NCBI GenBank assembly: GCA_030618705.1
Contig: JAUXCW010000004.1
Span: 1-37,995 of the forward strand
DNA: 37,995 nucleotides
Source of the DNA: Gammaproteobacteria bacterium
GTDB taxonomy: Bacteria > Pseudomonadota > Gammaproteobacteria > Pseudomonadales > JAHEGP01
Reading direction: 5' to 3'
The position numbers were made by a program, and so were the translations under genes. Numbering within the stretch: the first letter of the stretch is position 1; every line of letters starts with the position of its first letter. The notes beneath the pieces are model-generated. The model had not been told where the DNA came from. It did not search any database and was given only the letters and a program-made list of their open reading frames with translations. This document shows, one piece after another, positions 2,859-24,731 of the stretch.

Positions 2859-4752
2859 CCTCCGATTGCCGCATCGCCTCGAGCTGTTCATGCAGTTCCA
2901 GCCACCCGCTTTCACTCTGCTCCAAGCCGGTTTGCAGGGCGCCGCGCTGCTGTAGCAGAACCTGCAACTCCTCCTTTCGCTCCTCCAGGTAAATATCGCC
3001 GTCGGCGAGTCGCTGCTCGACAGCCGCGAGTTCGGTGGCCAGGCGCTCCATCTGTCGCTCCAGCTCCAGCACTTTTTTCTGCAAGGGTGCGCGCTTTTGC
3101 CGCTGCAGTGCGGCACGCTGCCTGAGCCCCTTCTTGTCCTGTTTGTCCACAACCCCCGCCTCTTCTGCCGGGGGTTCATCGCGGGATTCGGCTTTCAGCC
3201 AGTCCTGGTAGTCGGCGAGGGTGCCGGCAAACGGCGCCACCCGCCCACGGGCCACCAGGTAGAACTCATCCACGGTATTGCGCAGCAGGTGGCGATCGTG
3301 GGAGATAACCACCAGCGCACCCCCGTAAGCCTGCAGCGCCACTTCCAGTGCGTGGCGCATCTCCAGGTCGAGGTGGTTGGTCGGTTCGTCCAGCAACAAC
3401 AGGTTGGGTTTTTGCCAGACGATCAGGGCCAGCGCCAGGCGGGCCTTTTCGCCACCGGAAAACGGCGTGATCGGGGCGAGGGCCTTGTCGCCGTGAAAAT
3501 TGAAGCCACCGAGAAAATTGCGAATCTCCTGCTCGGTGGCGCTGGGGGAAAGACGCTGTATATGCAGGGCCGCGCTGGCCTCGAGGTCCAGGGCCTCCAG
3601 TTGGTGCTGGGCGAAATAACCGATGGCCAGGTGCTCGCCGCAGACCCTGTCCCCACGCAGCAGGGGTAAATCGCCGACCAGGCTTTTCACCAGGGTCGAC
3701 TTACCCGCGCCGTTGGGACCCAATAAGCCGATGCGGGATCCCGGCTGGAGGCTCATTTCGACCCCGCCCAGCACCGACTCGTCACCGTAGCCCAGTGAGG
3801 CTCGACTCAGGTTGATCAGGGGCGTGGAGTTCTTTTCCGCCTGCCAGAAAACGAACTTGAACGGCGAGTCGATATGGGCCGGGGCGATCAACTCCATACG
3901 CTCCAGCTCTTTCAAGCGACTTTGCGCTTGCTTCGCCTTGGTGGCCTTGGCGCGAAAACGGCTGACAAACTGGTGGATCTCGGCCACTCGCCGCTGTTGC
4001 TTCTCGTAGTTGGCCTGCTGCTGGGCCAGGCGCTGGGCCTTTTGTGTTTCATAGGCGCTGTAGTTGCCGCGATAGCTGATCAATTGCTGCTGTTCGAGAC
4101 TGAGGATCTCGTCGGCAATGGTATCGAGGAAATCACGGTCATGGGAAATCAGCAATAGCGTACCACTGTAGCGCTTCAACCATTGCTCCAGCCAGAGCGT
4201 GGCGTCGAGATCCAGGTGGTTGGTCGGCTCATCCAGCAGTAACAGCTCCGAGGGACACATCAGTGCACGGGCCAGGCTCAGGCGAATTCGCCAGCCGCCG
4301 GAAAAACTGTTGACGGGATTGTCCGTCTGCCCGCTACTGAAACCCAGGCCGTGCAGCAGTTGCTCTGCACGGTTATTGGCCTGGTAACCGTCCAGGGCTT
4401 CCAGCTCCGCATACAGCCGCGCCAGTTGATCGTGTTGGTCACTGTCCGCCAGTTTCTCGATACCCGCCTCGACCTGGCGCAGGCGCACATCGCCATCGAC
4501 CACATATTGCAATGCCGTGCGCTCGCTGGCCGCCACCTCCTGTGCCATGTGCGCCATGCGCCAGCCGGCGGGAATAAACAGCTCGCCACCATCGAGGGGC
4601 AACTGTCCCAGCAGCAGCGCAAACAAACTGGATTTGCCGCTGCCGTTGGCGCCGATGACGCCGATGCGCCGACCAGGGTGGATCCTGAAATTGGCGCCAT
4701 CCAGCAGGAGCAGGCTACCGCGCTGGAGAACGACGTCTTGTAGGGTAATCAT
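2848..4752 (-). CDS. ABC-F family ATP-binding protein (YheS-like)
   Basis: Two ABC cassettes (GANGSGKSS / GPNGAGKST), [12 protein letters not shown] twice, and a C-terminal coiled coil. Confidence 0.92.
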
Positions 4753-5279: not shown

Positions 5280-7013
5280 ATGGGCCATTCTATGCCGAGT
5301 ACGCAGCGACAGGATCTCTCCATTGCCATCACCGGCTCCGGCGGAGCCGGGGTGGTTTCCGCCGGTACGCTGTTACTCGATATGGCGGCGGAATTGGGCC
5401 ACTACGGCTTGATGCGCAAGGCCTATGGCCCGCAAATACGAGGCGGCGAGTCCGCCGCCCTGTTGCGTCTCAGCACCCGCCCCGTCCACTGTATGGACGA
5501 CGGCTTCGACCTGCTGCTGGCGTTGGACTGGCAGAATACCGATCGCTTCGCCGCGGAAATCCCCCTGAGCGCCGACAGCCTGATTATCGCCGACCCCGCC
5601 GCAGGCGAAATTCCGGCCGCCATCAGCCAGAGCGGCGCACAGATAGAACCGCTACCCTTGAAAGCGCTGGCCGGGGAAACCGAGGGTGGCCGCGCCAATA
5701 TGGTGGCATTGGGCCTGCTCGCGCGCTGGCTGGGTTTCGACCACAGCGCGGCCCAGGCCCTGATCGGAGCCGCCTATGCCGGCAAGGGCGAGACCATCGT
5801 CAGTAACTCACTGGCCAGCTTCGAGCGCGGCTTCGACACCGTACTCAAGCATCCCCCGGCCCAGGTCTTGAGTACCGGCGGCAGTGCCGCACCGCGCTGG
5901 CAGTTGAGCGGCAACGAGGGCTGTGGCCTGGGCGCCCTGCGTGGCGGCGTCCGCTTTGCCGCCGCCTACCCTATTACCCCGGCCAGCGAGATGCTGGAGT
6001 GGTTGGCGCCGCGCCTGGAACAACTGGGCGGCAGCCTGCTGCAAGCGGAAGACGAACTGGCCTCGATCAATATGGTGATCGGTGCCTCCTATGGCGGGGT
6101 GCCGGCCATGACCGCCACCTCCGGCCCGGGACTGGCGCTGATGCTCGAGGGCTTCGGCCTGGCGATAGCCTCCGAAACCCCGGTGGTGGTGGTCAATGTC
6201 ATGCGTGGCGGCCCCTCTACCGGCATACCCACCAAGTCCGAGCAGACCGACCTCAATATCGCCCTCTACGGCATGCACGGCGATGCCCCTCACCTGGTAC
6301 TGGCGGCACTGGATACCGCCGACTGCGTGTTCTGCACCGAGTGGGCGGTACGCCTGAGCGAGGCATTACAGGCCGCTGCCATTGTGCTTTCGGACCAGGG
6401 CCTGGCACAGTCCCGCGCCCTGATCGATCAACCGGAAAGGCGGGCATTGCAGATTCCGCCGCGGAGTCTGGCCACCGACGACGGACCCTACTTGCGCTAC
6501 GCCCTCACCGAAGACGGCGTATCGCCCATGGCTATCCCCGGGCTGGAGAACGGCATGTATACCGCCGACGGGCTGGAGCATGCACAGAGCGGAAAACCCT
6601 CCAGCGCGGCGGCGGATCACAGCGCCCAGCTCGACAAGCGGCAGCGCAAGCTGGAAAATCACGATTACGGCGCCGATTGGGCCGAGACCAGCGGCGGGGG
6701 AGATACCGCCATCATCACCTGGGGCTCGAGCACCGGCGCGGCGCGGGAGGCCCGGCAGCGCCTCGCAGAGGCCGGCCACGAGGTGCGCCTGATCTCCATG
6801 CGCCTGCTGCTCCCGGCCAGTGTCGAAGCCATGAACAAGGCACTCGAGGGCGTCGGACGCATCGTGGTTGTCGAGCAAAGTCATTCACAGCAGTTTTACC
6901 ACTACTTGCGCGCCTACTACGACCTCGACGTCGCCATCGAGGTGCTGGCAAGACCCGGCCCCCTGCCGATAACACCGGGTGAAATCGTCAATCGCATTCT
7001 GCAGCAGGGTTAA
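5280..7013 (+). CDS. 2-oxoacid:acceptor oxidoreductase subunit alpha (gamma-alpha fusion, KorA-like)
   Basis: N-terminal gamma domain (GSGGAGVVSAGTLLLDMA...YGPQIRGGESAALLRLS) fused to a pyruvate:ferredoxin oxidoreductase alpha domain (AYPITPASEMLEWLA, GPGLALMLEG, RGGPSTGIPTKSEQTDLN). Exact start uncertain (5241-5292). Confidence 0.9.
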   Translation: MGHSMPSTQRQDLSIAITGSGGAGVVSAGTLLLDMAAELGHYGLMRKAYGPQIRGGESAALLRLSTRPVHCMDDGFDLLLALDWQNTDRFAAEIPLSADSLIIADPAAGEIPAAISQSGAQIEPLPLKALAGETEGGRANMVALGLLARWLGFDHSAAQALIGAAYAGKGETIVSNSLASFERGFDTVLKHPPAQVLSTGGSAAPRWQLSGNEGCGLGALRGGVRFAAAYPITPASEMLEWLAPRLEQLGGSLLQAEDELASINMVIGASYGGVPAMTATSGPGLALMLEGFGLAIASETPVVVVNVMRGGPSTGIPTKSEQTDLNIALYGMHGDAPHLVLAALDTADCVFCTEWAVRLSEALQAAAIVLSDQGLAQSRALIDQPERRALQIPPRSLATDDGPYLRYALTEDGVSPMAIPGLENGMYTADGLEHAQSGKPSSAAADHSAQLDKRQRKLENHDYGADWAETSGGGDTAIITWGSSTGAAREARQRLAEAGHEVRLISMRLLLPASVEAMNKALEGVGRIVVVEQSHSQQFYHYLRAYYDLDVAIEVLARPGPLPITPGEIVNRILQQG

Positions 7014-21907: not shown

Positions 21908-23254
21908 ATGCTCGATCCAGCCCGCCAGACAGTCGACCTGCTGTTGTTCCCTCGCTGGCTGGTGCCGATCGTGCCGGCCGATACCATTCTCGAGCACGCC
22001 GCCATCGCCATCGAGGGCGATCGCATCGTCGCCATCTGCTCGCAGCAAGAGGCCCGGCAACGCTTCCAGTCCGGGCGCACCGTCGAATTGCCGGAGCATG
22101 TCCTGCTGCCGGGCCTGATCAACGCCCACGGCCATGCGCCGATGAGTCTGTTCAAGGGCCTGGCCAACGACAAGCCACTGAGTGAGTGGCTGCAAGAGGA
22201 TATCTGGCCCGCGGAGGAGCGCTGGGTGAACCGGGACTTCGTCGCCGATGGCGCCGAGCTGGCCATCGCAGAAATGCTGCTGTCGGGCACCACCTTTTTT
22301 AGCGATATGTATTTTTTCCCGGAAATCGTCGCCGACTCCGTGCGCCACTCCGGCATCCGGGCCCAGCTGGCGTTCCCGATCCTCGACTTTCCGACCGTCT
22401 GGGGCAGTGGCCCGGATCACTACATCAGCATGGGTACCGCCCTGTTCGACGAATACAAAAATCACTCGCTGGTAAACATCGCCTTTGGGCCACACGCGAC
22501 CTATACCATATCGAGCAAACAGCTTGAGCGGGTTGCCATGCTCTCCGAGGAGCTGCAGGCCGCCGTGCAGATGCACATACATGAAACGCAGCTGGAAGTA
22601 GACCAGGCGCTGCAGGCAAGCGGAGTCCGCCCCCTGCGAAATCTGCGCGATATAGGCTTGTTGAACCCCCGCATGCAATGCGTACACGCCTGCGCCCTCA
22701 ATGATGAGGATATCGAGGATCTGGCGCTGACCTCCAGCCACGTCATTCACTGCCCGGAATCCAACCTCAAACTGGCCAGCGGCTTTTGCCCGGTGGCGCA
22801 GCTGCTGGAGCAGGGCGTAAACGTCGCGCTGGGCACAGACGGCGCCGCCAGCAATAACGACCTCGACCTGTTCGGCGAAATCCACACCGCCGCCCTGCTC
22901 GGCAAGGGCGTGGCGGGGGATGCCTCCGCACTACCCGCCTTCCAGGCCCTGGAGCTCGCCACCATCAACGGCGCCCGGGCGCTCGGAATGGAGCGGCAAC
23001 TCGGTTCGCTGGAAGTGGGCAAGCTGGCCGACATCATCGCCGTAAAGATAGGCGATATACGGCTGCAGCCGGTCTATAATCCTGTCTCTCAACTGGTCTA
23101 CAATCAGGTCTCGGACCTGGTAAGCCACGTCTGGGTCGGCGGCAAGGCGCTGCTGGAAGAGCGCCAATTGCTCACCCTGGACAGCGATTCGATCAAGCGG
23201 CGAGCGCAGCAATGGTCGCAAAAAATCACCGGAGCAAACCATGAAAGCAACTAG
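21908..23254 (+). CDS. mtaD: TRZ/ATZ family amidohydrolase (5-methylthioadenosine/S-adenosylhomocysteine deaminase-like)
   Basis: LLPGLINAHGHAPMSLFKGLANDKPLSEWLQEDIWPAE, GTDGAASNNDLDLFGEI; position downstream of divergent gyrA. Confidence 0.9.
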   Translation: MLDPARQTVDLLLFPRWLVPIVPADTILEHAAIAIEGDRIVAICSQQEARQRFQSGRTVELPEHVLLPGLINAHGHAPMSLFKGLANDKPLSEWLQEDIWPAEERWVNRDFVADGAELAIAEMLLSGTTFFSDMYFFPEIVADSVRHSGIRAQLAFPILDFPTVWGSGPDHYISMGTALFDEYKNHSLVNIAFGPHATYTISSKQLERVAMLSEELQAAVQMHIHETQLEVDQALQASGVRPLRNLRDIGLLNPRMQCVHACALNDEDIEDLALTSSHVIHCPESNLKLASGFCPVAQLLEQGVNVALGTDGAASNNDLDLFGEIHTAALLGKGVAGDASALPAFQALELATINGARALGMERQLGSLEVGKLADIIAVKIGDIRLQPVYNPVSQLVYNQVSDLVSHVWVGGKALLEERQLLTLDSDSIKRRAQQWSQKITGANHESN

Positions 23255-23303
23255 CGTCAATACCGATGTCAACTATCTCGCCCACTTGTCCCGGCCCGCT
23301 TGA
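23241..23303 (+). pseudogene. Probable internally deleted remnant of ubiG (20-codon ORF)
   Basis: GGAG RBS, ATG at 23241 and TGA at 23301 encode MKATSVNTDVNYLAHLSRPA. DVNY followed by a short tail resembles recalled UbiG C-termini (E. coli ...GPGVDVNYMLHTQNK), and the location is the canonical mtaD-ubiG-gph slot. Confidence 0.7.
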
Positions 23304-23304
23304 T

Positions 23305-23985
23305 ATGACCCCGTCACTCAAAGCCGTGCTGTTCGACCTCGACGGAACACTGCTCGATACGGCACCGGACTTCGCCAATGTACTCAACGATATGCTGTTC
23401 AGCCGCGATAAACCGCCTGTGGCTTTTACCGACGTTCGCCAGACCGTTTCACACGGCGCCAGGGCGCTGGTGGAGCTCGGCTTTGGCGTGAGTGAAGGCG
23501 ACGAGGCATTCCCGTCGCTACTCGAAGAACTGCTGACACAATACCAGGCGAGACTCAGCGAGCAGACCGCCCTCTTCGAGAATATGGCGGAGTTACTCGC
23601 CTTTCTCGAACAACGAGGTATCGCCTGGGGTATCGTCACCAACAAACCCGCTGTTTACACCCGCGCTATACTGGAGGACCTTGGCCTGGCGCAACGTTGT
23701 GCAAGCGCCGTCTGCCCGGACCAGGTCCAGCACCGCAAGCCCCACCCGGAGTCGATTCTACTGGCGTGCTCCGAGATCGGCTGCGACGTCATGGACGCAA
23801 TCTATGTCGGCGATCACCGCCGGGACATCGAGGCGGGGATCAACGCCGGCATGCAGACCATCGCCGCCGCCTATGGCTATGTCGGCAGCGATGACTGCGC
23901 CACCGATTGGGGCGCCGACCGCGTCGCCGACAGCGTACTCGAAGTACACTTTTATATTCGCGAACGATTGGGGATGTTGCTATGA
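23305..23985 (+). CDS. HAD family phosphatase (phosphoglycolate phosphatase / MupP-like)
   Basis: LFDLDGTLLDTAPDF, IVTNKPAVYTRAIL, KPHPESILLACSEIG and YVGDHRRDIEAGINAGM; synteny with mupP. Confidence 0.9.
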   Translation: MTPSLKAVLFDLDGTLLDTAPDFANVLNDMLFSRDKPPVAFTDVRQTVSHGARALVELGFGVSEGDEAFPSLLEELLTQYQARLSEQTALFENMAELLAFLEQRGIAWGIVTNKPAVYTRAILEDLGLAQRCASAVCPDQVQHRKPHPESILLACSEIGCDVMDAIYVGDHRRDIEAGINAGMQTIAAAYGYVGSDDCATDWGADRVADSVLEVHFYIRERLGMLL

Positions 23986-24731
23986 GCCTGCTCGACTACC
24001 ACGCACCGGAGCAACTGCTCGACGGGCGCATCATTCTGGTTACCGGTGCCGGCGACGGTATCGGCAAGGCCGCCGCACTCAGTTTCGCCGGGCACGGCGC
24101 CACGGTAATTCTCGTCGGTAAAACCAGCGCCAAGCTGGAGGCCGTCTACGACCAGATCATGGCTGCCGGCGGTCCGCAACCCGCCATCTACCCGATTCAT
24201 TTTGGCGGCGCGGTGGCCCGCGACTACCAGAATATGGCGCAGAAACTGGATGAGGAATTCGGCCGCCTCGACGGCCTGCTGCACAATGCCGGCATCCTCG
24301 GCCCCCACAGCCCCGTTGAGTCCACCGACCCCGACAAGTGGCAGGAAGTGATGCAGATCAACCTCAATGCGCCCTTTCTGCTGAGCAAATACCTGTTGCC
24401 GTTATTATCGGCATCCAGCGATGCCTCGGTTATTTTCACCAGCTCGGCGGTCGGCCGCCACGGGCGGGCCTACTGGGGCGCCTATGCCGTTTCCAAATTT
24501 GGTATCGAAGGATTGATGCAAGTGCTCGCCGACGAGGTCGAGGCCACGACCAATATCCGGGTAAACAGCCTCAACCCCGGTGCTACCGATACCGCCATGC
24601 GACGCCAGGCCTACCCCGCTGAAGACCCCTCCGGCAATCCGCAAGCGGCACAGCTAATGCCCGCCTACCTCTATCTCATGGGGCCGGACAGTCGCGGCGT
24701 TCACGCCCAGGCGCTTGATGCGCAGACCTGA
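23982..24731 (+). CDS. yciK: YciK family SDR oxidoreductase
   Basis: ILVTGAGDGIGKAAALSFAGHGATVILVGKT, LHNAGILGP, YAVSKFGIEGLMQVLADEVE; ATGA overlap with the previous gene. Confidence 0.9.
   Translation: MSLLDYHAPEQLLDGRIILVTGAGDGIGKAAALSFAGHGATVILVGKTSAKLEAVYDQIMAAGGPQPAIYPIHFGGAVARDYQNMAQKLDEEFGRLDGLLHNAGILGPHSPVESTDPDKWQEVMQINLNAPFLLSKYLLPLLSASSDASVIFTSSAVGRHGRAYWGAYAVSKFGIEGLMQVLADEVEATTNIRVNSLNPGATDTAMRRQAYPAEDPSGNPQAAQLMPAYLYLMGPDSRGVHAQALDAQT

Follow-up and report, generated by a model that had tools for sequence, protein, structure and literature searches.

A probable deletion scar of ubiG and loss of the ubiquinone pathway in a gammaproteobacterium that keeps a quinone-using respiratory chain

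Ubiquinone is the core electron carrier of the Pseudomonadota, and the assumption is that each cell using it also synthesises it. Seventy species of the phylum without any quinone pathway have been described, mostly ecto- or endosymbionts with reduced genomes (PMC11707229). In Rickettsia the holes in ubiquinone synthesis are filled by host metabolites (PMC5615194), and in yeast the UbiB-family proteins Cqd1 and Cqd2 control coenzyme Q distribution (PMC8346625). The genome considered here resembles the first group in that neither a ubiquinone nor a menaquinone pathway was detectable, although the phylum normally has one. It differs from those species in its size (3.4 Mb) and its readable deletion scars; moreover, a relative in the same genus has the complete pathway, and a quinone-using chain, IspB and UbiB are retained (PMC11707229). 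As in Rickettsia, the supply of ubiquinone would rely on outside compounds, and UbiB is kept. Rickettsia, however, lacks UbiC and isoprene synthesis and keeps most of the later ubi genes, whereas this genome has lost the later steps and retains IspB (PMC5615194).

The window, i.e. the whole stretch of DNA analysed (37,995 nucleotides), is the entire contig C105 of a draft genome of 3.40 Mb in 388 contigs, estimated to be 97.3% complete. The main comparison is with G001, a genome of the same genus. The features at the locus are as follows.

21908 to 23254, forward strand: mtaD-type TRZ/ATZ family hydrolase, the 5' neighbour (NCBIfam NF006549, 657.6 bits, over the cut-off; 71% to G001)
23231 to 23234, forward strand: GGAG ribosome-binding site, apparently kept from ubiG (same ACCGGAG context 5' of G001 ubiG)
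23241 to 23303, forward strand: putative ubiG deletion scar, an ORF of 20 codons, MKATSVNTDVNYLAHLSRPA (from tail alignment, position and start context against G001)
23259 to 23267, forward strand: putative join AATACCGAT (N-T-D), which can be aligned with two places in G001 ubiG, AATGTCGAC close to its start and AACGTCGAT close to its end (suggestive only)
23305 to 23985, forward strand: gph, best NCBIfam match MupP (64-65% to G001)
23982 to 24731, forward strand: yciK-type short-chain dehydrogenase, the next gene of the operon (78% to G001)

The ATG of the short ORF (23241-23243) follows the GGAG after a 6-nt spacer and its TGA occupies 23301-23303. The mtaD stop codon, TAG at 23252-23254, falls inside the ORF, and the gph ATG (23305-23307) lies one base past the TGA. 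These coordinates confirm the layout reported in a first-pass annotation, in which the mtaD stop overlaps a GGAG-preceded ATG and gph starts 1 nt past the TGA. No Shine-Dalgarno sequence of its own is apparent for gph, whose best match, the MupP model NF009696, scores 222.6 bits, under the model cut-off of 359. The 20-codon ORF has no Pfam match and lacks the UbiG methyltransferase domain.

In the equivalent slot, on its contig C331, G001 carries mtaD, a full ubiG and gph, and ubiG lies directly 5' of gph in all 24 relatives whose locus was read. The UbiG of G001 starts MK...NVD (first residues MKSPGNINVDPHEVAKF) and ends NVDVNYLAHASRAD (last residues LGGNVDVNYLAHASRAD). The tail of the short ORF is identical to that end at 10 of 12 positions (NTDVNYLAHLSR and NVDVNYLAHASR, respectively), a score reached by none of 3000 shuffles, and sits exactly where the UbiG C-terminus precedes gph in G001 and other relatives. 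At the other end, ACCGGAG...CCATGAA is common to the ORF and G001 ubiG and the first codons are alike; the stretch of N-terminal coding sequence is a short one (MK..VNTD; in G001, MK..INVD). Compared with UbiG, the bifunctional ubiquinone O-methyltransferase modelled by TIGR01983, the ORF thus carries the start context and the last 12-14 codons of the gene and is without everything between, including the S-adenosylmethionine-binding domain. Judged from sequence, with no read mapping, it is a remnant of ubiG, about 217 codons of which were deleted in frame. An in-frame scar joining both UbiG termini had been proposed from the window alone. The intact gene in the same slot of a same-genus genome supports that proposal, as do the shuffling result for the C-terminus and, for the start, the ribosome-binding-site context common to G001.

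The first-pass annotation had advised looking for short direct repeats at the deletion endpoints. At the G001 locus, AATGTCGAC and AACGTCGAT are alike at 7 of 9 positions and correspond to the join AATACCGAT; microhomology in this N-x-D stretch could have caused the deletion and kept the frame, but the evidence is suggestive only. Among the relatives, end-to-end repeats are no longer than random: in-frame repeats have a mean of 5.5 nt against 5.7 nt for random segment pairs. A direct repeat built into ubiG as a general cause of deletion was therefore rejected, which leaves only the locus-specific microhomology.

The first-pass annotation had allowed for a ubiG elsewhere in the host. No canonical ubiG was found in the assembly, nor were the last 73 residues of UbiG. 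The model TIGR01983 exceeded its cut-off at one place only, at a contig end (C66:3314-3787, 144 bits). The protein concerned is 38% identical to G001 UbiG. Its gene, cut by the contig end, lies downstream of MetE-like, enolase-like and D-hydroxyacid dehydrogenase genes, the whole locus being G000 C66:1-3793. A relative of the protein (51%) occurs in another genome, G022, which also has canonical UbiG. The possibility that this is a moved copy of UbiG was rejected on the low identity, the different cluster and the coexistence of a related gene with canonical UbiG. It looks like a paralogue; its activity on ubiquinone precursors is untested. Since it passes the standard cut-off for UbiG, it would mask the loss from annotation pipelines.

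What the first-pass annotation could not see from one contig is that, on the evidence of the assembled sequence, the whole ubiquinone pathway has been lost. The genes ubiA, ubiC, ubiD, ubiX, ubiE, ubiJ, ubiH and ubiI are missing from another five loci, each on a separate contig and with intact flanks. The sites other than that on C188 were located via the flanking genes of G001, each junction lies within a single contig (C188, C158, C277, C160 and C363) and remnants are visible at most of the deleted loci. On C188 a single ORF of 56 codons stands between the DUF971 gene and ubiB, with ubiE and ubiJ missing. Its middle part is similar to the end of UbiJ (57 points, equalled in one of 3000 shuffles), and its start, MADENPTH, resembles that of G001 UbiE, MANDKTTH (244 of 3000). 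On C158 pepP is followed by KRDHDIVIA, like the UbiH start MKSNYDIVIA (123 of 3000), and then by gcvH; ubiH and ubiI are gone. On C277 mpl is followed by a UbiX remnant (99 of 3000), MSVAKAIALKNRRPL..., which fits the UbiX start together with an internal ALKERRQL, and then by an MMPL transporter gene. The UbiE-start, UbiH and UbiX remnants are not significant by shuffling alone and rest on position. The UbiC remnant on C160 is decaying: a start, RVFYDQC...LARWR, is interrupted by a stop codon with homology running past it, and the next gene is the one that follows ubiA in G001, so that ubiC and ubiA are both gone. On C363 only about 100 bases separate rho from the convergent hem genes, and ubiD is gone. 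Over the six compared segments nine of the ten ubi genes are lost (ubiG, E, J, H, I, A, C, X and D) and ubiB is kept, against the loss of one of about 42 other genes (our own count; hypergeometric probability about 3e-8). That one is a 244-codon ORF beside ubiD in G001 (L138:5923-6657).

Genome-wide searches gave a similar picture. A joined query of E. coli UbiC, UbiA, UbiE, UbiJ, UbiD and UbiX recovered all six from G001 but none from this genome. UbiH, UbiI and Coq7 were found in G001 and not in this genome by a second query, UbiK was found in G001 and not in this genome, and nothing in this genome exceeded the cut-off of the UbiH/I/F model. The matches of the Coq7 and cytochrome b queries in G001, at 58% and 49%, show that both work. 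UbiT, UbiU and UbiV, of oxygen-independent hydroxylation, are absent from this genome. In all, UbiA, UbiC, UbiD, UbiX, UbiE, UbiG, UbiH and UbiI are each absent from an assembly that is about 97% complete, and G001 is positive for every one. Three candidates were set aside. The UbiU-like protein on C338 is of the RlhA kind with no UbiV beside it; the UbiE-like protein on C345 adjoins an acyl-ligase gene and in our reading probably belongs to an aryl-polyene cluster; the UbiA-like protein on C211 lies on the COX1 contig, has counterparts in relatives and was taken as CtaB.

No menaquinone route was found, within the limits of a search for MenD; the futalosine enzymes MqnA, MqnC, MqnD and MqnE were not searched for directly. 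MenD was not found in this genome, but G001 is also without it, so this search has no positive control. No UbiE/MenG-type enzyme was found in this genome, nor were the UbiA, UbiD, UbiX and UbiE homologues that the futalosine route also uses, and that pathway has not been found in Pseudomonadota (PMC11707229).

The machinery that consumes quinone is retained. SdhB, at 71% to E. coli, is present, as are cytochrome b of the bc1 complex (54%) and COX1 (49%); with their G001 counterparts the succinate dehydrogenase, cytochrome b and COX1 proteins share 84-93% identity. UbiB is intact on C188 and IspB, the product of which normally serves quinone side chains, is present adjoining rplU. Relative to E. 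coli, UbiB has 27 unique changes here and 32 in G001; for IspB the counts are 10 against 7 or 26 against 22, according to which of two G001 copies is compared. Both proteins have thus changed no faster than their G001 counterparts and give no hint of relaxed constraint, but the same would be seen if the loss were very recent.

Taking these observations together, we consider it highly probable that the ORF is a scar of ubiG and that the ubiquinone pathway has been lost, with the reservation that no reads were mapped and that the genus was represented by a single further genome. By sequence, separate deletions removed ubiA, C, D, X, E, J, G, H and I and spared the quinone-using chain, IspB and UbiB. 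Genes are commonly preceded by small overlapping ORFs, but an unrelated small gene or a chance ORF is scarcely credible when no shuffle reaches the observed score and when the ORF matches G001 ubiG in its distance to gph as well as in position, frame and ribosome-binding site. An artefact of assembly or of strain mixture, with the deletion not present in the organism, is hardly more plausible. The draft is metagenome-like and came without reads, but six loci on six contigs are affected in one pathway only, and there are decayed remnants, for example the UbiC start and its internal stop. An isolated assembly deletion, which the first-pass annotation had entertained, does not explain the five other deleted ubi loci. 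It is improbable, but not excluded with about 97% of the genome assembled and no read mapping, that a relocated or acquired ubi cluster replaced the ancestral genes and lies in the roughly 3% that is missing. Some ordinary genes are missing from the 388-contig draft (purH, purD and NuoH of G001 were also not found), but nine or more genes would all need to fall in a gap, though the old loci are scattered, and no fragment of a ubi cluster is seen at contig ends except for the C66 paralogue.

If the pathway has indeed been lost, the cell would have to be supplied with quinone in some other way, since the chain needs it and no menaquinone route was found. The source may be uptake, a route that went unrecognised or genes that the assembly lacks. 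Our leading guess, inferred rather than demonstrated and held at somewhat less than even confidence, is that ready-made ubiquinone is taken up from neighbours or a host; the retained UbiB would perhaps handle the imported ubiquinone. More tentative still is the fuller picture of a bacterium with an ordinary-sized genome respiring with ubiquinone taken from other cells, in which UbiB, freed from biosynthesis, imports or places the lipid. Such a role is conceivable because Cqd1 and Cqd2, UbiB-family ATPases, influence coenzyme Q distribution in yeast, acting on the finished molecule and not on its synthesis (PMC8346625). They are yeast mitochondrial proteins, however, and a similar role for a retained bacterial UbiB is only a guess. 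A limited literature search found no paper on ubiquinone auxotrophy or salvage in bacteria.

The retention of IspB fits poorly with pure uptake, as no further use for its product is known here. IspB is intact and not accelerated, and together with a UbiA-family protein kept on contig C21, with best matches of MenA type that are all below cut-off, it could point to another quinone. Own synthesis by an unrecognised or partial route, with IspB providing the side chain and the C21 enzyme prenylating an imported or unusual ring, nevertheless seems unlikely to us. The C21 protein is also present in G001, where the ubiquinone pathway is complete, so it is no specific replacement; furthermore, enzymes of UbiE/MenG, UbiD and UbiX type and MenD were not found. 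This MenA-like prenyltransferase (L202:4799-5883 and L203:3740-4798) has 76% identity between the two genomes of the genus and its gene adjoins one for a YidE/AspT-like permease.

A pair of genomes from one genus, with the pathway present in one and apparently erased gene by gene in the other, amounts to a natural experiment on how a very hydrophobic cofactor is acquired. It also bears on what UbiB and IspB do once their pathway is gone.

The scars themselves may have a function. The stop codon of the ORF in the window abuts the start of gph, that of the scar on C188 overlaps the start of ubiB, and gph and ubiB have no apparent ribosome-binding sites of their own. Because the scar stops touch these starts, we slightly favour the idea that both scars persist as translational-coupling leaders; this is inferred from anatomy and coupling is untested. 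The start site of the scar would feed ribosomes into the abutting gph start, and the ubiE-ubiJ scar would do likewise for ubiB.

Some minor points concern the completeness of the comparison. The absence of purH, purD and NuoH reflects either further losses or assembly gaps and, because these are missing too, coq7 may also lie in a gap. An E. coli-type PyrD was found in neither G000 (this genome) nor G001. On C352 the synteny with G001 is lost immediately past the OsmC gene. Similar intergenic stretches, which look like a dispersed repeat, occur on C352 (L177, about 3200-3500) and on C348 (L205, about 5700-6090), and the one on C352 sits at the synteny break.
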